DNA from: Nitratiruptor sp. YY09-18
Lineage (GTDB): Bacteria > Campylobacterota > Campylobacteria > Campylobacterales > Nitratiruptoraceae
NCBI RefSeq assembly: GCF_016593235.1
Contig: NZ_AP023065.1
Span: 1,240,001-1,304,000, forward strand
Direction: 5' to 3'
Length of the DNA: 64,000 nucleotides
A model generated the notes under the pieces. It made no database searches, was not told the DNA's origin, and saw only the letters and a list, made by a program, of their open reading frames with translations. The translations under genes and the position numbers were made by a program. How positions within the stretch are numbered: the first letter of the stretch is position 1; each line of letters begins with the position of its first letter. Shown piece by piece: positions 50,085 through 64,000 of this stretch.

Positions 50085-50387
50085 TTATAAACCCAAAATC
50101 ATTTTTAAGCCATAATCAACTTTTGCAACCTCTTTTATTGTAAGTGTAGCTATTTTTTCATATATTCTATCTTTTGCAACTACTCGTATTTGCTCTACCA
50201 TAAAATCGCTTTCTTTTTTGAGAGTATCCCTTTTTGTTATTCTTATATGAAGAGGTTCAACATTATCGATGAGGTTTGTAGTCAAAGCAACAACTATTAT
50301 AAGATCTAAAATTTTATTTAAATCAGTATCAGAAACAATGGCAGCCGGTCGTACTTTTCCTACTTCAACAGCGCAGCAAATCTTCAT
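50085..50387 (-). CDS. MazF/PemK-like toxin, apparently N-terminally short
   Basis: A 100-residue protein from the ATG at 50387. GKVRPAAIVSD, LIIVVALTTN, LHIRITKRD, SDFMVEQIRVVAKDRIYEKIATLT follow the MazF/PemK endoribonuclease pattern in order (RPxxIVS, central strands, QIRxxxKxR). The usual first strand with RGDI(Y/W) before the RP motif is replaced by MKICCAVEV, so about ten residues seem missing or divergent. Activity is therefore uncertain. It lies downstream of the CRISPR array trailer in the same direction. Confidence 0.6.
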   Translation of the reverse strand: MKICCAVEVGKVRPAAIVSDTDLNKILDLIIVVALTTNLIDNVEPLHIRITKRDTLKKESDFMVEQIRVVAKDRIYEKIATLTIKEVAKVDYGLKMILGL

Positions 50388-50538
50388 TATGCAATAATGC
50401 AAGATTTGTGGTTATCTTTAAGATCCCCTTGAAGTAAGCTAACCAAAAATCTTCATTCGCTTTGCTCATTTGATTTTTTTTCAAGGTAAACCAGCCGTTC
50501 GTATGTTCGTCACTAAAATTTTTGATTTTAGGACTCAC
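50365..50538 (-). CDS. possible small ORF upstream of the MazF-like gene
   Basis: A 57-codon open frame from a GTG at 50538 to a TGA at 50365, overlapping the MazF-like start by 23 bases, the position expected for an antitoxin. The predicted protein is basic and has SKANEDFWLAYFKGILKI followed by TTNLALLHNED. I recognise no antitoxin family, and there is no strong ribosome site, so this may be non-coding trailer DNA. Confidence 0.25.
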   Translation of the reverse strand: MSPKIKNFSDEHTNGWFTLKKNQMSKANEDFWLAYFKGILKITTNLALLHNEDLLRC

Positions 50539-50602: not shown

Positions 50603-51163
50603 GCCCTCGCTCACTTAAAATCGGGTCATGGTTGTAATTTTCATTGGGATTCGACAAAAAAGACGGCAACGGAGTGCGGTCTCAATCCCCTTAAAATCGG
50701 GTCATGGTTGTAATCTTCGTGGCCATTGCAAGCCAAAGCTTGTTACGGCGTCTCAATCCCCTTAAAATCGGGTCATGGTTGTAATGTTCACAATGGTAAA
50801 AGAAGGCTTATTTAGAAGAGATGGAAGTCTCAATCCCCTTAAAATCGGGTCATGGTTGTAATAGCTCAACCCGTACAGTGAAAAACACCTTAAAGTCGAT
50901 GAGTCTCAATCCCCTTAAAATCGGGTCATGGTTGTAATAGCTCAACCCGTACAGTGAAAAACACCTTAAAGTCGATGAGTCTCAATCCCCTTAAAATCGG
51001 GTCATGGTTGTAATATATGATCATTGCGTACTGCGCAAAGATTGCGGTCTCAATCCCCTTAAAATCGGGTCATAGTTGTAATATGGTCTATGAAGGAGGT
51101 AAATATATGGGGAATGTAAGTGTTCGCGTCTCAATCCCCTTAAAATCGGGTCATGGTTGTAAT
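50603..51163 (-). CRISPR. CRISPR array, 8 repeats of 36 bp and 7 spacers
   Basis: Repeats start at 50603 (degenerate), 50679, 50750, 50827, 50903, 50979, 51047 and 51128. Read on the minus strand a repeat begins ATTACAACCATGACCC and ends GGGGATTGAGAC; ATTGAGAC fits the 8-nt 5' handle of type III crRNAs, so transcription is right to left. Spacers are 40, 35, 41, 40, 40, 32 and 45 bases from left to right. The fourth and fifth spacers (50863-50902, 50939-50978) are identical. The repeat at 51047 has one change at 51074. The first 12 plus-strand bases of the leftmost repeat are degenerate, as expected for the trailer end. Confidence 0.97.
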
Positions 51164-51334
51164 AGCAACAATAAGTTTTCAAATACCCATAAAACCAATA
51201 ATCTAGTGTAACAATAGATTTCTTAAAGTTTGCTTTTGTACCCATATTTCGCTTCTACTAAAATATTAAAGCCCCTAAAAATGGCCACTTTAAGTTTCAT
51301 TTTATACTTAAATGTAACTTTAATAAAATGAGAT
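51164..51334 (-). promoter_or_regulatory. CRISPR leader
   Basis: The 171-base AT-rich region between the last cas2 gene and the first repeat is the leader by position, because cas genes and array read leftward. It contains perfect 9-bp inverted arms TCATTTTAT (51297-51305) and ATAAAATGA (51323-51331) next to the cas2 stop. On the minus strand TTTAAGTATAAAATG offers a possible -10. No ORF of note. Confidence 0.75.
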
Positions 51335-51607
51335 TTATCGAATAACAAATATTTCATCTAAATCAAAAGCTACTCCCATTGCTATCCCTTTATCTTTGAT
51401 TTTATAGATTCTCACATCATCCTCTTTCGAATCTATAAGTTCATTTAATCGATCTGCAATGGTATAGATTCTCTCTTTTGTCACACTTTTTGCAATAAAT
51501 ACAGAGTACTGGATCCTTATACACTCCCCTTCCAAATATCTTGCAACTCTTCTTAATCTTTTTGGATCGCTTATATCGTAGCAAACAAGATAATCATTTT
51601 TTTGCAT
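51335..51607 (-). CDS. cas2: Cas2 (second copy, leader-proximal)
   Basis: A 90-residue Cas2. YLVCYDISDPKRLRRVARYL is the family's first strand and helix with the conserved Asp, and GECIRIQYSVFIAKSVTKERI the second block (QxSVF). DVRIYKIKDKG gives the later strand. Cas2 forms the dimer core of the Cas1-Cas2 integrase. The ATG overlaps the end of the Cas1-N ORF by 14 bases; there is only a weak ribosome site (GAGTAG), which suggests translational coupling. Confidence 0.92.
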   Translation of the reverse strand: MQKNDYLVCYDISDPKRLRRVARYLEGECIRIQYSVFIAKSVTKERIYTIADRLNELIDSKEDDVRIYKIKDKGIAMGVAFDLDEIFVIR

Positions 51608-51831
51608 AGTTTACTACTCTACCTAATATATATCCATGAACATCGATAAGATAGACTCTAAAAAAATTTGTAAGATAAAATAGATCATGCAAAGAGATAG
51701 TAATATTGGTTCCAAGATATAAGGCATAAATCTTTTTAAATGATATAACAAATTCACCATCACTTTTTTTTATAATTATATAACCATCACCAACTTCTAT
51801 TTTTGCATTTGATTTGATGATGAGTTTTTTT
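51594..51831 (-). CDS. free-standing Cas1 N-terminal beta domain, in -1 frame after cas1
   Basis: An open frame of about 79 codons after a seven-A run. The sequence KKLIIKSNAKIEVGDGYIII, then FKKIYALYLGTNITIS and VYLIDVHGYILGRVV matches the Cas1 N-terminal beta-sandwich and aligns with the N-terminus of the full Cas1 upstream, but no C-terminal nuclease domain follows. There is no ATG, GTG or TTG in this part; the nearest ATG is at 51911, 115 bases inside cas1. The cas1 frame passes through A_AAA_AAC (plus-strand 51824-51830), a canonical -1 slippery heptamer leading into this frame. It may be made as a Cas1 extension, from the internal ATG, or be a remnant of a second cas1. Confidence 0.7.
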
Positions 51832-52693
51832 CGATAATATCTCTCATTTTTGCAATTTTCTGTTTGATGAGAGACTCTTCGCTTTCTATGAAAATTTTGA
51901 GACTTGGCCATAATTTTTTCCTTCCATTTTGTGTAAGAAAGACTCCATTTTTATTTTTGGTAAAGTCATTAACAATTATATTTTTGTCCAGAAACTGATA
52001 TGCAACAAACCGATCTATATCTGCTCTAAAAAATTCTAAAATATCTGAACTCAAAGCCATATGATCCCGAAAAGAGGTATGCAAATACCCTATAAGAGGC
52101 TCAAAACCATAAAAATGCAACCATGTAGCTATCTCAAAATAAAAGATAGTATAGATATAAGATAGGAGAGCATTTACAGGATCAAGTGGTGGATTTTTGC
52201 TCCTTTGTCCTTTTGCTAATATTTTTGGGAAAAGTGAAAAGTAGTGCTTAAAATACTCTTTTGCTAAACTCCCCTCTATACCTAAAAGCATCTCAATACT
52301 TTTTGCATTTTTTACATCTTTTAAAATCTTATTTTTTTCAAAACCAAGTTTAAAGTGGTGCAGCGTCTCATACGACTTTTTTATCTTTACTGAAAGTATA
52401 TATTTTGCAATTTCCACTCTATTTCTTAATGCATGGTATTGAGCCTCTTTGATATGGGCATTTTTGATATATCTCTTTTGTATATGGATAAACTCTTTTG
52501 GATTGGTAGTTACAACTAATATTGCAATACTGTTTTTTGCTAATTTAGCAATGTCTTTAAGTGAAATATCCACTTTGCTATAAATAATAAGATAATCTAT
52601 AGCTTTAAGAGTAATTTTAATTTCATTATCTACTATCAAAATATTGTGCTTGACCTGCAAAGATGAGGACTTATCTATAATTACTCTATTCAC
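51797..52693 (-). CDS. cas1: Cas1 integrase
   Basis: A 298-residue Cas1 that inserts new spacers together with Cas2. The N-terminal beta domain is residues 1-75. The metal site is present: Glu140 (LLGIEGSLAKEYF), His205 (LIGYLHTSF) and Asp217 (SSDILEFFR). NPPLDPVNALLSYIYTIFYFEIA is the family core. The last residues (EKNSSSNQMQK) follow a slippery A-run. It overlaps the upstream cas2 by 4 bases and the Cas1-N frame downstream. Confidence 0.95.
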   Translation of the reverse strand: MNRVIIDKSSSLQVKHNILIVDNEIKITLKAIDYLIIYSKVDISLKDIAKLAKNSIAILVVTTNPKEFIHIQKRYIKNAHIKEAQYHALRNRVEIAKYILSVKIKKSYETLHHFKLGFEKNKILKDVKNAKSIEMLLGIEGSLAKEYFKHYFSLFPKILAKGQRSKNPPLDPVNALLSYIYTIFYFEIATWLHFYGFEPLIGYLHTSFRDHMALSSDILEFFRADIDRFVAYQFLDKNIIVNDFTKNKNGVFLTQNGRKKLWPSLKIFIESEESLIKQKIAKMRDIIEKNSSSNQMQK

Positions 52694-52965
52694 AATACTA
52701 TTGTTCCTTTATCAAAAGGTAACTGCTTTGCCTTTCCGAGCAAAATCGCATTTTTTTCAATTTCAATTATGTTTATTTTGTCTTCATCACTATTCATTCT
52801 AAAAAACAGCCTTTTTGCTAGAATTTCGAGCTCTTTTTGAGAAAGATAACTCTCAATCGCACTCTTTTGCCCACCAAAAGCAAAAGAGTAAGCGATTTTT
52901 CGTACTCTATAGAGGCGCTTTTTGTCTGCAATATCGTAGCAGATAAGATAAAGCCTACTCTTCAT
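52690..52965 (-). CDS. cas2: Cas2 (first copy, upstream of cas1)
   Basis: A 91-residue Cas2-family protein: YLICYDIADKKRLYRVRKIAY with the conserved early Asp, then GGQKSAIESYLSQKELEIL (QKSxxE block) and DKINIIEIEKNAILLGK. It differs clearly from the copy at 51335-51607, so the two are paralogues and not a recent duplication. It starts inside the end of the lipoprotein gene (11-base overlap) and is coupled to cas1 by a 4-base overlap. Confidence 0.9.
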   Translation of the reverse strand: MKSRLYLICYDIADKKRLYRVRKIAYSFAFGGQKSAIESYLSQKELEILAKRLFFRMNSDEDKINIIEIEKNAILLGKAKQLPFDKGTIVL

Positions 52966-53380: not shown

Positions 53381-54304
53381 TCAATTATCGTCGCTAAGAA
53401 ACTTTATGAGGAGATTTTCCAACTCTTTTTGTAAATATTGTGGAGAGATAATTTTCATATGAGGCAGCCATCTTTTAGCTAAAAGAAGTATTTCGTTATC
53501 ATTATTTATTGCATACTCAATAAGCAATGAACCATCATCATTTTCTTGCACAATCTTTTGAGATTTTAAAAATTTTTTTACCTTGAAATGTCTTGCAACC
53601 TCTGCATCAACTTTTACAGTTACAGGAAAAAATGGCTCATTATAACTTGTAAAGAGAGATTGGAAGTTTTTGAAAAAGTAGTCCACCTCTACTGGTGTTT
53701 TAAATGTATTTGAGTATTGCATTATTTCTTGAATAAAATTAATTCTTAAAAATTTAAATCCATTATTTATAGGATCTTTGCTCAAAATTGCTAAATACCA
53801 GTTATTCTCAGCAAAAACAATTTTAAGAGGTTTTACTTTATTAAAATAATACGTCTCATCAGATTTATAGACTATATCAACATATTTTTTAAAATAGATT
53901 GCACTTTTGAGAATTTGCAAATGTTTTGTGGCTATTAACTCTTCAAACGGAGGTTCTTTAAGAAAAAATATTTTATTGTCTTTTTTCATTAAACTATCTG
54001 GCGAAAAACCAAGGTATTGCAAAAATGGACTATTTGTTAAAATCAAAATATCTATAAATTTTTCATACTCTTCAAAATATCTTTTTGTGGGCAAAAGAGC
54101 TTCTAAATCCAGCTTTTGTGGGAGTGCATAGCAGCCTTTTGCAGTGGGGATAAATGTGATTTGAAAAAACTCTTCAATCTCAGTTTTTAGCCTCTGCACA
54201 TTGCGCACAGAAGTTTGGAGGATTTGTGATAGATTTTTGGTACAAAATTTTTTATGTTTTTGGATATAGATCAAAAACGCTAGAAGTTTTTTGCTTTTAG
54301 TCAC
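53381..54304 (-). CDS. WYL-domain transcriptional regulator
   Basis: A 307-residue regulator. The first 60 residues form a winged helix-turn-helix (LLAFLIYIQKHKKFCTKNLSQILQTSVRNVQRLKTEI). Residues about 130-210 are a WYL-like domain (VDIVYKSDETYYFNKVKPLKIVFAENNWYLAILSKD), whose WYL tripeptide is present as NWYL. The C-terminal WCX-like part ends the protein. WYL proteins sense nucleic-acid or nucleotide ligands and often regulate CRISPR loci. Position between effector and adaptation genes supports local control. Confidence 0.88.
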   Translation of the reverse strand: MTKSKKLLAFLIYIQKHKKFCTKNLSQILQTSVRNVQRLKTEIEEFFQITFIPTAKGCYALPQKLDLEALLPTKRYFEEYEKFIDILILTNSPFLQYLGFSPDSLMKKDNKIFFLKEPPFEELIATKHLQILKSAIYFKKYVDIVYKSDETYYFNKVKPLKIVFAENNWYLAILSKDPINNGFKFLRINFIQEIMQYSNTFKTPVEVDYFFKNFQSLFTSYNEPFFPVTVKVDAEVARHFKVKKFLKSQKIVQENDDGSLLIEYAINNDNEILLLAKRWLPHMKIISPQYLQKELENLLIKFLSDDN

Positions 54305-54384: not shown

Positions 54385-54810
54385 CTATATTACAAACTGC
54401 TTAGCTTCTTCTTTACTCATTGTAATTACAAACTCTTTCTCTTTTCCCGTTTGCGTCTTTTGAAGAGTCTTTAACATATTTTTATCTTGAAAAAATGATA
54501 ATCTATATCTTGTATTTTGATCTTTTTGAATCATTCCCAATATTCCCATCAGTTCACTTCTTGTAAAGTTCTTTCTCAAAAGTGCCAAGCCTGTTTCGAC
54601 TCTTTTTCCATCGATTTCAAAAATGATCTTTACAGGCTGCTCACTTCTTATAAACTCTATATAACCCCAGCCAGCTAATATTGCCAAAGCAACAGCACTC
54701 GCTGTATCCAAGATCCCAAATATTTCCCACAAATAAGAATCAAAAAGCTTTGCAATGATTCCACTAATGATTATAATTATAAATATAATAAAAGGAATAT
54801 ATCGCTTCAC
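54385..54810 (-). CDS. two-helix membrane protein coupled to csx20 and csx1
   Basis: A 141-residue protein with two N-terminal transmembrane helices (about 5-22, PFIIFIIIIISGIIAKLF; about 30-55, IFGILDTASAVALAILAGWG) and a soluble C-terminal domain of about 85 residues (VKIIFEIDGKRVETGLALL ... KEFVITMSKEEAKQFVI), predicted to face the cytoplasm. Its ATG overlaps the csx20 stop by 4 bases, and csx20 overlaps csx1 in the same way, so the three are one translational unit. I recognise no domain. By context it could be a membrane effector or anchor of cyclic oligoadenylate signalling. Confidence 0.75.
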   Translation of the reverse strand: MKRYIPFIIFIIIIISGIIAKLFDSYLWEIFGILDTASAVALAILAGWGYIEFIRSEQPVKIIFEIDGKRVETGLALLRKNFTRSELMGILGMIQKDQNTRYRLSFFQDKNMLKTLQKTQTGKEKEFVITMSKEEAKQFVI

Positions 54811-55187
54811 TCATATCTCCTAAATCTCACGAATTGAAACTCAGAGTATTTTGCAACTTTACCATCGATGTTTCTTTCTTTTACAATACGTTTCGTGGTA
54901 GCATAAACTGGCACTACTCCCAGCTTTTTAGCTTCATTTACAAGAATGCAACAAAGTCCAAAATCTCCTTGAATGAGAGCAAAATCTCCCTTTTTGGTAT
55001 TCTCTTGCAAAAAATCGACTAGAGGCTTCGCATAATTTCTCAGACTTCCAAGATCAGGCGGCACATTAGAAAAAAGCGTTTGAAGATCTGGCGGAAGATA
55101 GACAAACTCTTCTATTCCTATCTCTTTTGCGGCTTTAATCTGCTCAGGTATCAGTTTGTGGGAAAAAAAGAGAAGTAATTTTTTCAT
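54807..55187 (-). CDS. csx20: Csx20-like predicted ring nuclease
   Basis: A 126-residue protein with the Csx20 pattern: LLLFFSHKLIPEQIKAAKEIGIEEFVYLPPDLQ at the start, FSNVPPDL, then KGDFALIQGDFGLCCILVNEAKKLGVVPVYATTKR and a C-terminal EFQFVRFRRYE. Csx20 is a small CARF-type family associated with type III CRISPR and proposed or shown to degrade cyclic oligoadenylates, switching off Csx1-type effectors. Recognition is from memory of the family, not a search. The 4-base overlaps on both sides tie it to csx1 and to the membrane protein. Confidence 0.8.
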   Translation of the reverse strand: MKKLLLFFSHKLIPEQIKAAKEIGIEEFVYLPPDLQTLFSNVPPDLGSLRNYAKPLVDFLQENTKKGDFALIQGDFGLCCILVNEAKKLGVVPVYATTKRIVKERNIDGKVAKYSEFQFVRFRRYE

Positions 55188-56407
55188 TTGTGATACTTTC
55201 TCTTTTTTTCCAGTTCATTTAAAAGAAATAGCTTTAAATTACTTTTATCTCTAATAGGAGCTTCTTGTAAAACTTTATTTGCTTGATTGATGTAATTTTG
55301 AAGGTGTTCAATGCTTTTCTTTAGACTTTTTTTACCACCTTTTTCTCCAATGAATGCGTGATTGGCCAAATTCCTCAAATCTTTAATTTGTTCAACAAGC
55401 TTGATAAACTCTTTTTTAAAAAAATGCTGTTGATATTTCAATATGTATCCTATTGATGCATCAATATCTCGGATTTTATAACCTTGTGCCAATAAATTAA
55501 GTTCTTCAATAATGTAATAATGAAGCGTTTCACGTAAAATAGTAAGAGCCTGAGCATATCTGTTTTTATGAAACAAAACATTGGAGATGGTGAGATAGAG
55601 TTGCCACTTTGGTAAATTGAAATCAAAGTTTTTAGTTTCTTTTTTCAATTCATCGATTATAAATGAAAACGATTTTATATCATTAGGAACATTTCCGATT
55701 TTTTCTAGTTTCTCTTCAATTTCCTTAATTGTTTCTAAATAGATATCAGCAGCGGCAAAACCTACGCTTTTTGTATAGATATCAAATTTATTCGCCAATG
55801 TACTGATTGGATGATATTCTTCATCTCCTTTATGTTCTCTTACTTTTTTAGAAATCAATTGAGCTATTTCTCTTCCATCGCCATATTTTTTGAAAATATT
55901 TGCAGACTCTATCCATTGATTCAGTTCGATAAATGGAAGCATATTGACAATAGGTGTTATATCTCCTTCTTTGGCTTCAAATATACCGTAATACACTCCT
56001 TTTATTTCAGTATTTTTGAAATTTTTAAAAAATTGCAATATAGTAGATATAAAAAGAGGCAAGGAGCGAAATCCATGAGTAATATCGAAATATATCTCAC
56101 TATTATCAACATCTAAACTTATTAAAACTTCAAATACTTTCCAAAACTCTTCACTATTTTTTCCAAACGGGATAATTACCTTTTCATAGTCTCTTATATA
56201 TTCATCAGCTAAATTCCACAAGGATTCTACAGTTCCTACAATAAAAATTTTATCAGGATTATATAATCTCCTTAAAGCATCACCGACCAATTTACTTTGA
56301 ATTATCTTGTCTTCTATTTTATAGGATGTCAAACTATAATCATATTTTTTGTTTTCTTTTTGATATAGCCCTTTCCCCAATAAACTAATAAGAATTTTGT
56401 CTTTCAT
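55184..56407 (-). CDS. csx1: Csx1-family CARF-HEPN ribonuclease (TM1812 type)
   Basis: A 407-residue effector. The CARF domain (about 1-180) begins ILISLLGKGLYQ and includes FIVGTVESLWN and YFDITHGFRSLPLF, signatures of the TM1812/Csx2 group. The C-terminal HEPN domain has the catalytic R-x4-H, Arg345 to His350 (LRNLANH). In type III immunity Cas10 makes cyclic oligoadenylate, which binds CARF and activates non-specific RNA cutting by HEPN. It opens a three-gene coupled unit with csx20 and the membrane protein. Confidence 0.92.
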   Translation of the reverse strand: MKDKILISLLGKGLYQKENKKYDYSLTSYKIEDKIIQSKLVGDALRRLYNPDKIFIVGTVESLWNLADEYIRDYEKVIIPFGKNSEEFWKVFEVLISLDVDNSEIYFDITHGFRSLPLFISTILQFFKNFKNTEIKGVYYGIFEAKEGDITPIVNMLPFIELNQWIESANIFKKYGDGREIAQLISKKVREHKGDEEYHPISTLANKFDIYTKSVGFAAADIYLETIKEIEEKLEKIGNVPNDIKSFSFIIDELKKETKNFDFNLPKWQLYLTISNVLFHKNRYAQALTILRETLHYYIIEELNLLAQGYKIRDIDASIGYILKYQQHFFKKEFIKLVEQIKDLRNLANHAFIGEKGGKKSLKKSIEHLQNYINQANKVLQEAPIRDKSNLKLFLLNELEKKRKYHK

Positions 56408-56517: not shown

Positions 56518-56886
56518 TTATTTTTTCACCACACATTTTTGCAGTTTTTTATCAAATGTTTTAATCATATAATCTTGTGACATTGAGCAAAGTAATGCAT
56601 CCACAAAATCTAAATTCTTTATTGTATATAATCTAAGGGCATCTATAATGTAATACTTCTTTGGTAAAAGAGTGATATTTGGATATTCAAAAAGTAACTG
56701 CAACGAATTGACGATCTCTTTTTTATCAATACTATATACCCCTTTTAAAACATAGACTACTTCAGCTACCACTTCACCTAAAATTAGTATCTCTTGATTT
56801 TCGATAATATCCTTCACCTCTTCAAACATTTTTGTATCATCTTGCAGCAAATAACGCAAAATAATATTAGTATCAATTACTATCAT
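56518..56886 (-). CDS. PIN-domain toxin (VapC-like)
   Basis: A 122-residue PIN ribonuclease. Acidic residues of the active site are Asp5 (VIDTNIILRYLL), Glu39-type (GEVVAEVVYVL), Asp93-type (LDFVDALLCSM) and a late Asp (FDKKL). It follows the antitoxin gene with a 4-base overlap, the standard arrangement. It sits in the middle of the type III CRISPR island. Confidence 0.9.
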   Translation of the reverse strand: MIVIDTNIILRYLLQDDTKMFEEVKDIIENQEILILGEVVAEVVYVLKGVYSIDKKEIVNSLQLLFEYPNITLLPKKYYIIDALRLYTIKNLDFVDALLCSMSQDYMIKTFDKKLQKCVVKK

Positions 56887-57164
56887 TTATCCACTTTTTG
56901 ATATTTTTTTATAACATACTCTTGCCAAGCACTCTCTTCTTTTTTTCTTAAAGCTGGATTTGCATACTTTTTCAACATCCCTGCCGCTCTATTTTTTTTA
57001 ATTTGTACTATTTTTTTTTCGATTTCATTTACCAAATCTGCATATTTCGCTTGAATATAAAATCCTTTTACTACATTTTTTTTCTTATCGATAATCTCGA
57101 TAATTTCATACTCATCCAATTTGTGTAAATTCCTTTGAATTTCAGAAATAGATAATCGATGCAT
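56883..57164 (-). CDS. antitoxin of the PIN toxin
   Basis: A 93-residue protein from the ATG at 57164 (MHRLSISEIQRNLHKL), chosen because AGAAGGA lies 5 bases upstream; the longer start at 57191 falls inside the palindromic operator. The N-terminus looks like a Phd/YefM-type DNA-binding fold (SISEIQRNLHKLDEYEIIEIIDKKKNVVKGFYI), and the Lys/Arg-rich C-terminus (AGMLKKYANPALRKKEESAWQEYV) would wrap the toxin. Confidence 0.8.
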   Translation of the reverse strand: MHRLSISEIQRNLHKLDEYEIIEIIDKKKNVVKGFYIQAKYADLVNEIEKKIVQIKKNRAAGMLKKYANPALRKKEESAWQEYVIKKYQKVDK

Positions 57165-57177
57165 AACTTTCCTTCTC

Positions 57178-57199
57178 ATATATGTTTTCATATATTATA
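57178..57199 (-). promoter_or_regulatory. toxin-antitoxin promoter with palindromic operator
   Basis: ATATATG (57178-57184), TTTT, CATATAT (57189-57195) is a perfect palindrome next to TATAAT on the minus strand (57194-57199), a consensus -10. TTGATG 19 bases upstream may be the -35. Overlap of palindrome and -10 is what autoregulation by the antitoxin complex would use. Confidence 0.65.
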
Positions 57200-57204
57200 G
57201 CAAA

Positions 57205-57605
57205 CTATTTCAAATGGTCATCAATTTTTTCCAAAACTATTTTATTGTCTTTTTCGTTCCAATAAACTCTTCTGCTATCATCTCCATCAAATGGATAAAA
57301 CCCATGAGAATATTTTTTTGAAATTTCTCCCTGTAATGAATGATGCCTAAGAGATTTTAGATTTTTACCGGTCACTCTATATTTTTCTAAATCATCTATT
57401 GATTTATTTAATTGATAAAGCTCCCTTGAATTTAAAGTTTTTACATCTTTTACAAACTCTTTTGACTATTTAATTTTTTGGAAACGAGTTGTACCAGATG
57501 TATTTGATAATATTCATTTTTATCTTTTTCACCTTTAGCATATGCCTCCCTGTTCCAAGAAGCATAATCAAAACCCTCGATATCTATTTTCCTTGGTCTA
57601 TCACT
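57205..57605 (-). pseudogene. broken unknown gene between csm5 and the toxin-antitoxin pair
   Basis: Two open segments in different frames follow csm5. The first (from 57605 to the stop at 57450) reads RKIDIEGFDYASWNREAYAK then KNEYYQIHLVQLVSKKLN. The second (57465 to the TAG at 57205) reads KEFVKDVKTLNSRELYQLNK, later SLRHHSLQGEISKKYSHGF and RRVYWNEKDNKIVLEKIDDH. Restoring one A in the four-A run at 57460-57463 joins them into about 130 residues. No start codon is seen in the first part, so the 5' end may also be damaged. The second half has a faint RelE/HigB-like ending, too weak to name. Confidence 0.6.
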
Positions 57606-58717
57606 TCACACAATACCCAACCAAATGGTAATAAATTTTGATTGCTTCTTTCGCTAACTCCAAACATCCAAGTTGTAGTTTCTTGATCGAGTGTTTCCCA
57701 TTTATTTGGTTTTCTTCTTGGTCCTCCGCCACTAACTTTTACTCTTATTTTTCTCATACCATCTATAGTTACCGCTCTTGCTTGGGAGTATTTGCCAACT
57801 CTAATTAAAAATTGATTCTCTTTTGGTTTGAAATTTTTATATTTTTCATAAAAAGCATCGCTATAGTATTCGTTTGTAAAGTCATCTACTTTTTTACCTT
57901 TAAAAGTTGCATACGGTTTAAACATTTGTTCAAATATTGGTAGATAGTGCTCATTACAAGCTTTTTGTATCTCTTTAATATCTACTTCTTTATCTAAATC
58001 ATAAAAATCTTTTATAGTCAAATCTGTTTCAAAAATGCTTTGCTGTTTTTCATTTGAAAAGATTGTTTCAAGTTTAATAGTTGGTCCTTGGTCATCTTCT
58101 TCAAATCTCTCTTTATTTAGGGCATATCCTATAATAGAATATGCTTTTAAAGGAATAGCATCTGCAATACTTAATTCTTTAAAAAGATTTTGAGATGGAT
58201 TGCTATTTTTAAACCATTTCTCCCATTTTTTTTTATCTTTTTTATAAATATACTCTTGATAAGCAGTTGAAATAGAACCCTTTAGAGAACTTCCGGGTAT
58301 GTATACATTGTTTGGTCTATTGTTGAATCTAATAGTTTTTTCTATCTCAAATCTATTAAAAACTTTTCGAGGATCTATTCTTCTTCCACCCTCGTTTTGA
58401 TCAGCTCTTCCTATTTTCTTTTCATAATCTTTTGCAAAGCTCTTGGTTACTTGAACTTTTTTAATATATGCTTTTTTTGCATACTCTTTTCTTGATTTTA
58501 TAAATTTATGAAGCTCAAAAAGTGATTCATATCCACTTTTTGATACTACTTTTTTAAATTGCTCTTTATCTTGCTGTGGTAAATTTTTGTAAAATTTAAT
58601 TTCATCAAACTCATAAAGATATCCATCATCAATTATAAAATTTGTAGGTTCGTATACTTCGCCTGTTCCTATATGTATAGGTGTTAGAGCAGTTAATTTA
58701 AGTCTATACTTCTTCAT
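57584..58717 (-). CDS. csm5: Csm5, type III-A RAMP subunit
   Basis: A 377-residue RAMP protein capping the top of the Csm complex. The N-terminus LKLTALTPIHIGTGEVYEPTNFIID and VYIPGSSLKGSISTAYQEYI are RAMP hallmarks (Gly-rich loop IPGSSLKG). The C-terminal FLIRVGKYSQARAVTIDG is typical of Csm5. The gene overlaps csm4 by 14 bases. It is uninterrupted. Confidence 0.92.
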   Translation of the reverse strand: MKKYRLKLTALTPIHIGTGEVYEPTNFIIDDGYLYEFDEIKFYKNLPQQDKEQFKKVVSKSGYESLFELHKFIKSRKEYAKKAYIKKVQVTKSFAKDYEKKIGRADQNEGGRRIDPRKVFNRFEIEKTIRFNNRPNNVYIPGSSLKGSISTAYQEYIYKKDKKKWEKWFKNSNPSQNLFKELSIADAIPLKAYSIIGYALNKERFEEDDQGPTIKLETIFSNEKQQSIFETDLTIKDFYDLDKEVDIKEIQKACNEHYLPIFEQMFKPYATFKGKKVDDFTNEYYSDAFYEKYKNFKPKENQFLIRVGKYSQARAVTIDGMRKIRVKVSGGGPRRKPNKWETLDQETTTWMFGVSERSNQNLLPFGWVLCEVIDQGK

Positions 58718-59582
58718 TTTTTACTCCGATCGGAATTGTAATAGCATAACCTTGATGAACTATATCTTCGAAAGTGGAAATTTTTTTTATAGCTTTACCC
58801 ATATATTTTTTTGTTGTCTCTTTCTCAAACTCAATCACAGCCGCAGTATCAGCTAAAATAAGCGGTTTTTTAAATGGATTTGTTCTTGCTCTGTCTCCTC
58901 CAAGTTTTCCAAATCGGTTAAAAATTTCATAAAAAATATTTTTTGCCTCTTGTCCTGTTATATATGCTGGAGAGAGTGTCATAAAATATTTAGATTGAAA
59001 ATCAAAATTTACTGTTTCAAAACTCTCTACTGTAAATCTTCCTTTGCCAATAGTTGCATCTTTTCCAAATCCAACTGCTCCGATTTCATTTAAAATTATC
59101 TCTAAATCTTTGGCAAAACTTTTATCAGTTAAAAAATATAGATCAAGCCTATTATAAGAAATCTCCTGAACCCCATATGGAGCAAATGCACCACTGTCAG
59201 TGGTAAATTTTAGATAATTGATAGAGTTTCTAACTACATCTACCAACTCTTTACTACTATCTTTAATTGCATTTTCGTATTGTGCATTTTGTAAATCTTT
59301 TAGAGTTACCCAAACCTTTTTTCTATTCTCTTTTTTCTTTTCCATATCTTCGCCAAGCATAAATGAAGGCAGTTTTGGCTTTGGCAAAAAACCGCTTTGA
59401 AAACCATCTGAACATATTAAAAAAGGATTTTTATCATAATTTTCAAGTAGTTTTTTTAGTCTATTTTCATCACGGTATGCTATGTGCCAACATATTTGAC
59501 CAAAAAGTGTATCACCTTTAAGAGGTGTAGCAAAATTAGTTAACGGTTTAATAGTCGCTTTATAGAGTAAATATTTATCCAT
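58704..59582 (-). CDS. csm4: Csm4, type III-A crRNA-5'-handle RAMP subunit
   Basis: A 292-residue Cas5-like RAMP protein that holds the crRNA 5' tag and contacts Cas10. PLKGDTLFGQICWHIAY is the conserved early motif (xSDTLFGxI), and GAVGFGKDATIGKGRFTVE the Gly-rich loop. It starts 2 bases after csm3. Intact. Confidence 0.92.
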   Translation of the reverse strand: MDKYLLYKATIKPLTNFATPLKGDTLFGQICWHIAYRDENRLKKLLENYDKNPFLICSDGFQSGFLPKPKLPSFMLGEDMEKKKENRKKVWVTLKDLQNAQYENAIKDSSKELVDVVRNSINYLKFTTDSGAFAPYGVQEISYNRLDLYFLTDKSFAKDLEIILNEIGAVGFGKDATIGKGRFTVESFETVNFDFQSKYFMTLSPAYITGQEAKNIFYEIFNRFGKLGGDRARTNPFKKPLILADTAAVIEFEKETTKKYMGKAIKKISTFEDIVHQGYAITIPIGVKNEEV

Positions 59583-59584
59583 AA

Positions 59585-60235
59585 CTATTCCTTAATAAAC
59601 TTTACTCTACCATATCCTCTACTTCCATTCCCTCCAAGATAATCATCTTCTATAAGTTTTAATGCAGTCTCTACAATATTGATAAACTCTTCTTTATCAT
59701 CTGTTGGTAATACTTTAATTCTTATATCATAATTAAATTCAACCCCCGCAACAACCCTTTCTGTTTGTCTTGGATGTTTAGCAGTTCCTGTTGCTCTATC
59801 TATTACATTTTCATACTTAGCTTCGGTAAGTTTTATCTCATCTTTATCAGTTTTTTGCTCAAACTCTTCTGTTAAAAAGCAATCACCTACACTTATTCTT
59901 GTAATCCCTATTTTTCCATCTTCATCATCTTTATCGCCAAAAAGTTTAAGAAGGTTTATTGCATTTTTCCTATCTTCTTCGCTTTGAAACTTAGGATCGT
60001 TTAAATATTTAGAACTAAAAGGTTCTCCATTACTTATACCAACTAATCCAAAGTGCCACTCTAAAAGACTTCTCATCTTCCCTTTTAGTGAACTACCGGG
60101 AATGTAAGGTCTATCTGTATTGACATCTTTTATAACACCATTATCAATACCACCAATTTTCATAACATCATCACCGCCACCAATATGAAGTCCTGTAACT
60201 ACTTTTATTTTTCCTTTAAGTTTAACTATTTCCAT
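59585..60235 (-). CDS. csm3: Csm3, backbone RNase of the type III-A complex
   Basis: A 216-residue Cas7-like RAMP protein forming the helical backbone and cutting target RNA every six nucleotides. TGLHIGGGDDVMKIGGIDN contains the catalytic Asp31 (equivalent to Asp33 of Streptococcus thermophilus Csm3), so RNA cleavage should be intact. PYIPGSSLKGKMRSLLEW is the Gly-rich loop and GGNGSRGYGRVKF the C-terminal loop. It lies between csm2 and csm4 with gaps of 1-2 bases. Confidence 0.95.
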   Translation of the reverse strand: MEIVKLKGKIKVVTGLHIGGGDDVMKIGGIDNGVIKDVNTDRPYIPGSSLKGKMRSLLEWHFGLVGISNGEPFSSKYLNDPKFQSEEDRKNAINLLKLFGDKDDEDGKIGITRISVGDCFLTEEFEQKTDKDEIKLTEAKYENVIDRATGTAKHPRQTERVVAGVEFNYDIRIKVLPTDDKEEFINIVETALKLIEDDYLGGNGSRGYGRVKFIKE

Positions 60236-60236
60236 T

Positions 60237-60575
60237 TTACTCTCCTTTATAAAATCCGATTACTGCTTCGAAAAAAAGTTTGAATGTATTAAATTTCTCT
60301 TTTGTATCTATCTGCTTTATACAACTTTCAATCATCTCTTGAAATTCTCTGCTTGCTACTCTTCTATTTACCGCATAGGCAACTTTGGAATTTAGCATCT
60401 TAATAAATGGCAATACATCATCAAAATCCTCTTTTTTTATTTTCTCTTCCAGCTCAAGCACTTTGTCATAAAAGTTTCTAACTTGCGTTTTTTTTGTTCT
60501 TTTTATTTTTTCTGCCCACTCTTTAGCCGTTTCGTTTAATAACTCTTTATCTTCTTTTAAATTTAACACAATCAT
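60237..60575 (-). CDS. csm2: Csm2, small subunit of the type III-A complex
   Basis: A 112-residue helical Cas11-type subunit that lines the target RNA. Characteristic segments are TKKTQVRNFYDKVLELE, NSKVAYAVNRRVASREFQEM and FKLFFEAVIGFYKG. It starts 2 bases downstream of the cas10 stop. Its presence with Csm3-5 fixes the subtype as III-A. Confidence 0.92.
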   Translation of the reverse strand: MIVLNLKEDKELLNETAKEWAEKIKRTKKTQVRNFYDKVLELEEKIKKEDFDDVLPFIKMLNSKVAYAVNRRVASREFQEMIESCIKQIDTKEKFNTFKLFFEAVIGFYKGE

Positions 60576-60577
60576 AA

Positions 60578-62944
60578 CTAACTCCTTCTTTGTTTGTATA
60601 TAAATTTACTTAAAACAATTTTTGTCTCACTTGGATATTTTTCTATCATTTCATCGATAGTTGCTAAAAAATCTTTTTCTAACTCTTTGGATAATTTATT
60701 TTCCAAATTTCTTCTATAAGAATAAGCTAATTTAGATTTCCAGATGGTAGATTTAACATCACCATCTTGTTTAACTTTTTTGCTCATTTCACAAAACTCT
60801 AACAATCTATATAAAAATGCCGTAGGAATGCCATCTTTTAGTGAGTTTTCCATATCTTGTAAAGTATCATATAAACCTAAATCATCAAGATAGTCACTCC
60901 ATTTAACTCTCTCTTTGAATATAGTAAGAGCATCTTTACCTTCAAGCTCTTTAGAATATTCTAAAAATTCTTCAGCAATATGAGCTATAAACTTAACAGG
61001 TTTATTTGGTTTTGTCATAGATAAACCAACACTAAAGCTAAGAGGAGAACCTTTTGCAAACTTCATAAATTTTTCTCTTACTTCAGTACTTAAATCCAAT
61101 ACTTCATCCCATGCACCAAGAATAAACAAATCATCTCCTCCGGCAAAAACAGTATAGGTGTTGGGATATCTATTTTCCATCAGATACGGAACATAGACGC
61201 TAAAAAAGTAATCTACCATTCTTGAAAAAAAGTTGTACTTTGCAAAAGATTCTGTTACACCACTATGGCGAATAAATTGTCCCATATTATCTACATCACC
61301 CTTAAGTGCCATAAGGGCTTCTACACCAAATTCTCTTTTTTTATTGGTAATCCCGTCTTTGACACTCAATGAAGCCAGATTCTCAAATGTTAAAATATCT
61401 GGTATCTCTTCATTTTGACTTTCAAGAAATTCGATCTCTTGCTTACTTAAATTTTTTTTCAAAGCAACATAAGAGCTTATCTCCCACTTTGCAAAACCGC
61501 TAAAATCATCACTTTTAGAAATATCAAAAATTGCAACTGTATTTTTAAGACTTTTTGGATCATTATCTACAAATTTCAAATAAAAATTATTAAATATATT
61601 GATGGAAGTTTCATCTTTTGTAATAATGAGATATTTTTTCTTGGTAAGCTCTTTACCAATATCTATAAATCTTTGACAACTTTTACATACTCTTTTTTTT
61701 TAAAATATTATTTTCTTTACCTACTCTATGTTTACAGATAAAACATTGATTTTCATTTGTAATGTTTTTATCCCACTTTAAATCATAATCTTTTTTTAAA
61801 AGATCAAATTTTTTTAGCTTTGTTTTTTCAACTTCAATTCCCAAATCTTTTCTTAATCTATTTTGGTATCTTCCTTTTTCTATAAAATCAAAAAGTCCAC
61901 ACTCTACAAACGATATGCCTACACCTGTTTGACCAAAAAATTCTTTAGCAAAAAATTCATTGAGTCTTGATTGAATATTTATAAGCTCATTTTTTATTTC
62001 ATTACTATTTGGTGCAAGAATTTCAAATTTTCCTGCACTATCATTAATAATTGATAATTTGCTAAGTTGTAACTCTTCTACTACATATAAAGCAATTACT
62101 TTTGTCAAGATTTGCACATATGCAGACTTTCCACGCAACACTTTTGTAGCAGCTTTTGCCTCTACTTCGTTAAAAATAAAGTCTTGAATACCAAAAAAAT
62201 CTCCATTTATTAAAATAAATTCATTTTCTTCTTTATAAGATTTGGTTTTTCTGTAGTAATTGATAATATTTTCTCTTTTTTCTAAATCGAGTTTACTTAT
62301 AGCAGCGGCAAAAACAGCTGTTGTTTTTAAGTGGTCATAAAGAGGAATATTTGCCTTTGTTACAGGAAAATCCCTATTTTTAAAAGATGTCGCAGATGGT
62401 ATAAATGTGGTATATTTTTTTAGCAGATATTCTAAACCTATAAAATCTGTTGTTTGATTACCATTAGTTTTTGTAGAGTTTTTAAATCTTTTTCAAAATA
62501 TTCCCAAAGCTCTATATACTCATTTTTATCGCTTTTCTCTTCAGCATAAAAAATAGAATGGGGAGAGAGCTTATCTATTTTATACTCTTTTGTTTCATCA
62601 AAAAGCCCTTTGAGTCTTTGTTTTTTAAAATCTTTAAACTCAACACTTTTATTGTAATTTTCAAAAGTCTCTCGTTCAAATCCACTTGCCATTCTATCTG
62701 CAGCCGCTATTATCCATGAATTTTCATCCGAGTTTTCATTTACAATATGGTGTTCATAAGCATACTGATGATAGTTTTGCAAATCATTAAAATAATCTTG
62801 CAAAATCTGAGCCGTATACGCACTATGTTTATATCCATAATTTTTACTTTTAAAAGGCTCTCTTAATGGTATCTCTGCCCTCTGCCCAAACTTCCCAATA
62901 TCATGCAACAGTCCCGCAAGTGCCATCAAGTCAATATCTCTCAT
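60578..62944 (-). pseudogene. csm1: Cas10/Csm1 signature subunit, broken by two frameshifts
   Basis: The 2367-base locus corresponds to a normal Csm1 of about 788 residues but lies in three frames. Part 1 (62944-62438) is the HD nuclease domain (LLHDIGKFGQR; His14, Asp15). Part 2 (62492-61683) continues with LYDHLKTTAVFAA and the zinc-type NQCFICKHR. Part 3 (about 61700-60578) has CKSCQRF and the cyclase palm motif FAGGDDLFILG (GGDD). Adding one base at the five-A run 62479-62483 and removing one at the nine-A run 61693-61701 restores a single frame. As given, no full Cas10 is made without slippage. Confidence 0.88.
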
Positions 62945-63748
62945 CGCAAATCCTCTACTTCAATTTTCCCAAGCCCAAAGCTTCCAAGTTTGCCAACCCC
63001 TACGATCTCACCATATTTTAAAAGTTCATACGTTTGTTTATCAAGCCCATCAACAACTATTTCTCCCACTATGCCTCCAACTTTCATTTTTGTTTTTTGT
63101 CTATTTGAATATCTTGAAAAATCCATAAATTTTAAATCTTTTTTTACAACTTTTGGAAACTTTTCAATTTTTTCATCAATTCCATCAAAAAAAAGCCTCT
63201 TCTTATAAATTGAAACTAAAATATCCTTTATATCAAGGTCGCAAAAATTTTCCCTCCCTCTTTATCCTGAGAGGCGTTACAAATCTTATCTTTACTTTTG
63301 GACAAAATTCGTCGCATTTAAAATTTTTTGGCTCTGTTTTTAGATTCTTAAACTCATTTTCAAACACAACCTCACCACCTAGATAAATCTTTTCTATCTC
63401 ATACTTTTTTCTATTTACCCCAAGTCCTTTTTGTGTTAGCATCCTATAAAGAGCACTTAATACATACGGATACTTTTGGCACGCTTCATTAAAAAGATAC
63501 AAGGAAAAATCAAGTTTTTTTGGCTTTAGTGTAAAATCGAACCTAAACTTGTGAAATCTATTTTTCTCTTCATAAAACTCATAATAGATACAGTTATCTT
63601 TTGCAAAGCAAGTTGAACATTCAAAAGAGGGATTTATGCAGACTACATCTTTGAGATTCACTCCAAAAGCACCACGTAGCATGGAGCCTATAAAGGGAGG
63701 TAATTGTGAAAAATTTCTTGCTAACACATTTATTTTAAAATATTTCAA
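62941..63748 (-). pseudogene. cas6: Cas6 pre-crRNA endoribonuclease, broken by one frameshift
   Basis: Part 1 (63748-63233) starts with TTG (KYFKINVLARNFSQLPPFIGSMLRGAFG) behind AAAGG. It includes a Cys set (CINPSFECSTCFAKDNC) and RFVTPLRIKREGKF. Part 2 (about 63247-62941) continues DLDIKDILVSIYKKRLFFDG and ends with the Gly-rich loop EIVGVGKLGSFGLGKIEV of Cas6. Removing one base in the A4T5 run (63243-63251) joins them into about 268 residues. The end overlaps the cas10 start by 4 bases (ATGA). A working Cas6 may be encoded elsewhere. Confidence 0.85.
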
Positions 63749-63813: not shown

Positions 63814-64000
63814 ATGGAAGTTTTCATCATGTATGATATAAGCTGTGACAAAAAAAGAAATAGAGTAGAAAAGCTCCTTTCTTCTTATGGGTACAGAGTA
63901 AACTATTCAGTATTTGAGATTTCAATTTCAAAAGCCAAATACAAAAAACTCATACAAAATCTCAAAGATCTTACTTCAAAAAAAGATAATGTAAGAGTCT
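63814..64000 (+). CDS. cas2: Cas2 (third copy, 3' truncated by the window)
   Basis: The first 62 residues of a Cas2 open to the window end. MEVFIMYDISCDKKRNRVEK has the conserved Asp-containing strand, YGYRVNYSVFEISISKAKY the SVFE block, and KKDNVRV the following strand. It reads away from the rest of the cas genes. The sequence differs from both other Cas2 copies. It suggests a second adaptation module or array just right of this window. Confidence 0.88.
   Translation, partial: MEVFIMYDISCDKKRNRVEKLLSSYGYRVNYSVFEISISKAKYKKLIQNLKDLTSKKDNVRV

Follow-up and report, generated by a model that had tools for sequence, protein, structure and literature searches.

The leader-proximal spacer of a CRISPR array in Nitratiruptor sp. 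YY09-18 raises the question of whether type III systems preferentially retain a memory of the sites at which translation of invader genes begins. The array, here designated array A, lies in a 64,000-nucleotide stretch of this genome (the window; Table 1), and the spacer in question, spacer 7, is a 45-nt segment between repeats at 51047-51082 and 51128-51163. Its plus strand reads AAGGAGG, 7 nt, and then ATG GGG AAT GTA AGT GTT CGC, and the sequence-only reading, which had pointed to this combination of a ribosome-binding site and a start codon, was exact in both coordinates and letters. In random 45-nt stretches from the remainder of the window, the probability of AAGGAGG-N4-10-ATG is 0.0002 per strand and that of AGGAG-N4-9-ATG is 0.007, and in base-shuffled copies of spacer 7 the former occurs with a probability of 0.002. 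The reading frame of the ATG stays open 5' of this codon as well (MVYEGGKYMGNVSVR), so that the start of a protein beginning with MGNVSVR is not its sole reading.

Array A and the adjoining III-A locus

Table 1. Features of array A and the adjoining genes, in window coordinates
Feature	Position	Strand	Basis or remark
CRISPR array A	50603..51163	-	8 repeats of 36 nt (leftmost degenerate), 7 spacers
Spacer 7, leader-proximal	51083..51127	-	plus strand taken as target sense strand, AAGGAGG-N7-ATG
Presumed leader	51164..51334	-	between array A and cas2; position, repeat orientation
cas2	51335..51607	-	TIGR01573 1e-13
cas1 without reverse transcriptase	51797..52693	-	TIGR00287 1.1e-44
Second cas2	52690..52965	-	TIGR01573 1.2e-6
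WYL regulator	53381..54304	-	PADLOC WYL 2.2e-19; Pfam WCX; Pfam WYL just below cut-off
Csx23, Csx20, Csx1 (CARF-HEPN) ancillary genes	54385..56407	-	
csm5, csm4, csm3, csm2	57584..60575	-	
cas10/csm1, three pieces (palm2, domain B, HD), different frames	60578..62944	-	Pfam
cas6, two pieces, different frames	62941..63748	-	Pfam for C-terminal piece
cas2 start, RT-Cas1 module	63814..64000	+	RT-Cas1 fusion and array B further on in L002

Array A is most likely transcribed leftward, with the crRNAs coming from the minus strand, because its repeat, read on the minus strand, ends with ATTGAGAC, the leftmost repeat (50603-50638) is degenerate, with 8 mismatches, and cas2 and cas1 are located at the right; the direction assumed in the sequence-only reading thus holds. 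A repeat end of the ATTGAGAC kind is the part that forms the 5' tag of the crRNA. The two matches of a promoter scan both fall on the plus strand, which argues weakly against the leftward reading, but their number does not exceed that in shuffled sequences, and there was no promoter match on the minus strand of the presumed leader. The spacers are 32-45 nt long; spacers 4 and 5 are identical, a 76-nt repeat-spacer unit being exactly duplicated at 50826-50977, and the 32-nt core of the repeat has no other copy in the genome at up to 3 mismatches. The degenerate end repeat starts with the word GCCCTCGCTCAC, which is found inverted at L002:6970-7005 (see below for this numbering), where it directly adjoins a fragment of a CRISPR repeat on the far side of array B, close to repeated genomic DNA. 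A gene for a PemK/MazF-like toxin (50085-50402, Pfam) adjoins the trailer end of array A. The spacer at 50786-50826 does have the open frame noted earlier, but such openness is uninformative: in the six distinct spacers of array A, 12 of 18 plus-strand frames are open, as are 11 of 18 minus-strand frames (a stop as the final codon counted as closed), and the idea that open plus-strand frames constitute evidence was discarded since the minus strand is equally open.

Rightward from array A, the minus strand carries, in this order, cas2, cas1, cas2, a small ORF, the genes for the WYL regulator, Csx23, Csx20 and Csx1, those for a PIN-domain protein and its partner (56518-57191, within the csm operon), csm5 to csm2, the cas10 pieces and the cas6 pieces. 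The two cas2 genes flank cas1 (51335-52965), and the RT-Cas1 module has a third cas2. In plasmid pACLO of Arcobacter cloacae, a PIN gene is likewise placed after csm5 and before a Csx1-type gene (L210:16730-18607). Together in a single operon, csm2, csm3, csm4 and csm5 identify the locus as type III-A. The cas10/csm1 gene is not intact, the HD domain, domain B and palm2 falling into three ORFs of different frames; in a species of the same genus (G015), the corresponding place is occupied by an intact ORF of 817 aa, and both cas6 pieces match a single intact ORF of 271 aa of that species. Elsewhere in the YY09-18 genome, the Cas10 palm has weak matches, one of them barely above the curated cut-off (28.4 vs 27 bits), and there is no second PF10040-type Cas6, the split cas6 being the only PF10040 match. 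The frame breaks reflect either decay of the effector or indel errors in the assembly. Since neither the one clear cas10 nor the one PF10040-type cas6 has an unbroken frame, the III-A system of YY09-18 may not work, and because a sequencing error is possible at cas10, we speak of a III-A locus rather than a proven working system.

Past the window end, in overlapping DNA (L002; window position = 60000 + L002 position), positions 3814-6879 of L002 encompass cas2, a 717-aa RT-Cas1 fusion and the three-spacer array B, that is, an adaptation module in which a reverse transcriptase (RT) is fused to Cas1 beside cas2 and an array; the matching profiles are RVT_1 (1.8e-38), Cas1 (7.6e-61) and Cas2 (3.3e-18). 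This module lies outside the window, and the cas1 that adjoins array A lacks an RT. In pACLO, RT and Cas1 are annotated as two ORFs beside cas2 and the III-A operon (L210:20443-22570). The array B repeat is related to that of array A (GACCCGATYTTAAGGGGATTGAGAC core). Read on the strand opposite to the crRNA, spacer 2 of array B includes an ATG whose frame is open, and spacer 3 has AAGGAGG-N5-ATG, an observation that prompted a wider test on relatives.

The target of spacer 7 had been proposed to be a mobile-element gene encoding MGNVSVR. A search in phage, plasmid, viral-contig and genome collections returned no protospacer and no source for the spacer: none of the blastn matches among phages and plasmids extends over more than 67% of the query (best E 0.2), neither an exact nor a codon-degenerate part of the spacer has a match in viral_contigs, the codon-degenerate part has none in genome_contigs either, and at up to 3 mismatches the own genome and the family contain the spacer itself alone (1 of 22 genomes). 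For the small contig of the YY09-18 genome, no near phage match was detected with half of the contig compared.

Start motifs in type III and type I arrays

The strict motif, AGGAG-N4-9-ATG, was fixed after two examples had been seen, namely, spacer 7 and array B spacer 3. Relatives of RT-Cas1 were collected from the class, where 39 of 397 genomes matched (in some cases through the Cas1 part alone), and from genome_contigs (80 of 90 loci kept). Control arrays came from loci with cas1 in 178 of the 397 genomes of this class. Arrays were detected by script and oriented via the repeat end, and the spacers were made unique. Arrays with repeats of about 30 nt were classified as type I-like and those without RT but with 36-nt GGGGATTGA-type repeats as type III-like; types were thus assigned mostly by repeat (RT loci by RT-Cas1), and tblastn detected csm or cas10 genes in 18 of the 56 type III stretches. 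The final sets comprise 831 unique type III spacers from 59 arrays and 1641 type I-like spacers. Owing to the degenerate repeat on its left, the first spacer of array A is not part of the automatic sets. Left out of the second RT set, as not CRISPR-like or not orientable, were the arrays of L060, L067, L104 (second), L109, L116, L120 (first), L121, L132 and L140 (two). In the control set, the L202 array was excluded, L193 and L194 were separated as another type, and L183 was kept off the oriented type I count; the final table omits L039 and L042 (repeat not type III) and the arrays of L230, L234, L236, L237 and L254, with L237 counted apart.

In the discovery set of RT relatives, the strict motif is present on the target strand in 14 of 295 spacers and on the crRNA strand in none, and among the newly found spacers of the second RT set the counts are 8 and 1 of 331. 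Across all type III-like arrays of Campylobacterota, 29 of 831 spacers contain the strict motif on the target strand vs 1 on the crRNA strand (binomial P 6e-8; 27 vs 1 of 829 once the two seed spacers are removed), and for the broad motif the corresponding counts are 47 and 2. Type I-like arrays of the same class show 5 vs 2 strict and 8 vs 11 broad matches in 1641 spacers, so that the ratio of type III to type I rates is approximately 8 (3.8-24 by bootstrap over loci). The broad matches are distributed over 27 of the 59 type III arrays. Subdivision by RT gives 21 vs 1 of 540 spacers for type III arrays with RT (37 arrays, 35 RT loci; Fisher test against type I, P 8e-9), 7 vs 0 of 246 for genomes without a match to the RT part (18 arrays; P 0.0009), and 1 vs 0 of 45 for type III arrays without RT in genomes that have an RT elsewhere, array A included (4 arrays; P 0.19). 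The strict motif does not differ in frequency between arrays with and without RT (P 0.54); for the broad motif, the frequencies are 6.7% and 3.7%, respectively (P 0.07). Bacteroidota hosts are not known to use this signal; their RT arrays have 1 vs 0 strict matches in 197 spacers.

The motif behaves in several respects like a real initiation signal. The spacing between AGGAG and ATG peaks at 5-8 nt, with a mode of 6 nt, as in genuine ribosome-binding sites; reordered A2G3 pentamers give 2-5 matches vs 28 for AGGAG, with the exception of GGAGA (15), which overlaps AGGAGA; and the frame 3' of the ATG is open in 19 of the 20 strict matches with at least 12 nt remaining.

Plasmid records with oriented type III-A arrays provided a replication outside Campylobacterota; arrays that could not be oriented, from Thermocaproicibacter, Pseudanabaena (three), T. 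brockianus and one Rhodothermus, were omitted. Among 147 spacers, there are 5 vs 0 strict and 6 vs 0 broad matches, against backgrounds of 0.64% and 1.77%, respectively; with its orientation taken as given, the Thermocaproicibacter array has 2 vs 0 broad matches in 26 spacers. In the III-A array of Limosilactobacillus fermentum DR9, two of the 20 spacers have credible matches to phage phiPYB5 (E ~1e-11, 94-95%), a further one matching at chance level (E 0.027), and these two are exactly its two start-type spacers, both in the sense orientation. One protospacer spans the annotated start of a DnaC-like gene (phiPYB5 31039), and the other lies at the start of an unannotated 55-codon ORF (28076); for both spacers, the motif coincides with the start of an ORF, and the coding strand is the one to which the crRNA is antisense. 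Altogether, 7 start-type spacers besides spacer 7 were searched, each in one or two collections, and matches were obtained for the two L. fermentum spacers alone. Three have no source in viral_contigs by exact parts of 23-24 nt, one of these matching only its own array among 48 genomes of the genus; one further spacer and a Thermus spacer have none among phages, and a further search with an L. fermentum spacer matched its own plasmid alone.

Orientation, background and rival explanations

Base composition points to an orientation antisense to mRNA in nearly all type III spacers and in about half of the type I spacers. By purine skew, calibrated against long ORFs, type III target strands are ~100% sense (estimates 1.00-1.27, capped) and type I strands 0.51; a 4-mer classifier gives sense fractions of 1.08 and 1.18 for the type III groups, 0.50 for type I and ~0.9 for the Bacteroidota RT arrays. 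The proposal that the crRNA of spacer 7 would be antisense to mRNA is supported statistically at the level of the class and by the two protospacers of the DR9 array; for array A itself no protospacer was found, spacer 7 having been compared with the collections and spacers 1-6 with the local sequence set.

The strict motif, counted on both strands, is found in 3.6% of type III spacers (30/831; 3.5% on the target strand) and 0.43% of type I spacers (7/1641). In spacer-length windows, also on both strands, its frequency is 0.85% in host flanks, 0.25-1.04% in four phage records and 1.0-1.4% in the small YY09-18 contig. At these rates, type III spacers carry the strict motif about 8 times as often as type I spacers, 4 times as often as host flanks and 2.5 to 14 times as often as the remaining DNA sampled, and even with an assumed baseline of 2% the excess has a Poisson P of 0.002. 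The contrast is smaller for the broad motif, at 5.9% (49/831) vs 2.0-3.4% of windows and 1.2% of type I spacers. If the spacers came from mobile elements far richer in strong ribosome-binding sites than the phage, replicon and host DNA measured, part of the excess would vanish.

We consider it probable that spacer 7 yields a crRNA antisense to an invader mRNA at its ribosome-binding site and start codon and that this is a general type III pattern. A chance match, or derivation from within a coding region, would accord with the frame of spacer 7 being open throughout 5' of the ATG, but is very improbable in view of the random frequency of its full motif (0.0002 per 45-nt window and strand) and the single crRNA-strand occurrence of the strict motif among the 831 type III spacers. 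Another explanation is that mRNAs are sampled with a sense bias but otherwise evenly, from mobile elements with short genes and strong ribosome-binding sites, the starts themselves not being preferred. The sense bias is indeed near complete by itself and is known for type III (in the accessible part of PMC8482600), and the sources of type III spacers, those of RT-linked ones in particular, are described as enigmatic in what is accessible of PMC5513706. We nevertheless regard such even sampling as unlikely, given that the measured backgrounds of 0.25-1.4% stand against 3.5% on the target strand and that the type I-like arrays of six genomes with a type III-like locus or RT-Cas1 contain no strict match in 361 spacers (broad, 2 and 2), those of a seventh such genome containing 1 in 49.

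The starting hypothesis was that RT-Cas1 is the cause of the pattern, capturing the 5' ends of mRNAs or ribosome-protected start fragments, so that the spacers would be copies of initiation-region RNA. The RT-Cas1 fusion, cas2 and array B adjoin the window, the 35 RT loci show the excess, and spacers with the broad motif extend farther 3' of the ATG than would follow from even placement (KS P 0.004); this last, weak signal came from an unplanned comparison and is not relied on, and the strict motif gave no sign of the constant ATG-to-end spacing that a ribosome footprint would leave (KS P 0.20). The hypothesis is weakened by the excess in genomes without an RT match, as well as in the L. fermentum and Thermus III-A stretches, where tblastn detected no RT part, and the RT-Cas1 of Marinomonas mediterranea orients spacers weakly, according to the accessible text of PMC5576922; accordingly, we rate it as improbable. 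An acquisition bias independent of RT, with Cas1-Cas2 taking the displaced coding strand near gene starts, is a more tenable but still doubtful account. It agrees with the enrichment of new Streptococcus thermophilus III-A spacers 3' of start codons (PMC9048733, accessible part) and with the lean of broad start-type spacers to the leader side (17, 10, 11 and 6 of 44 by array quarter from the leader, in arrays of at least 5 spacers); against it, the motif in Campylobacterota is the ribosome-binding site itself, and the near-total sense orientation exceeds the 65% coding-strand average given for type III in the part of PMC8482600 at hand.

Under the antisense reading of spacer 7 and its counterparts, spacers would enter arrays with little or moderate strand preference, and those able to pair with invader mRNA would be retained. 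Start regions, being weakly structured, accessible to binding and present in every mRNA copy, could be captured more easily, make better guides, or both, and this advantage would lead to their over-representation relative to even sampling of genes. On balance, we lean toward retention by selection as the largest contributor, and an acquisition bias toward gene starts is our tentative candidate for the next one. Capture by reverse transcription may add to the effect and seems not to be required, given the excess in genomes without an RT-Cas1 match. With similar leaning, we propose that type III systems preferentially remember translation-initiation regions, their arrays being enriched several-fold, across phyla, in spacers whose crRNA covers the Shine-Dalgarno sequence and start codon of invader mRNA.

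Significance and relation to known systems

Zhang et al. (2021), as cited in a review, reportedly observed naive III-A acquisition near start codons in S. thermophilus. A strand bias of type III spacers is already known, and what seems to be new, judging by the literature searched, which included few subscription papers, is that natural type III arrays are enriched in start sites: no passage describing an excess of Shine-Dalgarno sequences or start codons in such arrays was found there. The terms "start codon" and "gene start" are absent from PMC8482600, and "translation initiation" appears in it once, in the title of a reference. Start-site signals suggest that the spacers derive from genuinely translated genes, and which strand is targeted, even when no genome is matched. 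If true, the preference would give a clue to the way in which guides of type III systems are captured or selected; immunity would begin by occupying or cutting the ribosome-binding site of the invader, and enigmatic spacer repertoires would become decodable as gene starts without a reference genome. Guides directed at ribosome-binding sites are predicted to protect better, or to be captured more often, than guides directed at gene bodies.

The YY09-18 locus resembles type III-A (Csm) systems in its csm2-csm5 genes, cas10 and cas6 pieces, Csx1 and a 36-nt repeat ending in ATTGAGAC, and differs from them in the broken frames of cas10 and cas6 and in the two cas2 genes that flank an RT-less cas1. 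With the RT-Cas1 type III systems of M. mediterranea and Arthrospira, as far as the accessible parts of the sources describe them, YY09-18 shares the fusion with an adjoining cas2 and an array of its own. The spacers of those systems show a weak orientation bias and are mostly untraceable, with enigmatic sources (PMC5576922, PMC5513706, accessible text); unlike them, the Campylobacterota arrays are, by composition, almost wholly antisense, with readable start signals, whether or not an RT is present. Like the type III set of PMC8482600, so far as its text is accessible, the Campylobacterota spacers target mRNA; the coding-strand share of 65% there comes from mapped spacers, whereas the ~100% estimated here comes from composition and is accompanied by the start-site excess. 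A further parallel is III-A acquisition in S. thermophilus, which likewise involves the coding strand near gene starts and proceeds without RT. There, according to the accessible part of PMC9048733, spacers freshly acquired in the laboratory are enriched ~10-50 bp downstream of start codons, whereas in the natural arrays of Campylobacterota it is the ribosome-binding site itself that is represented.
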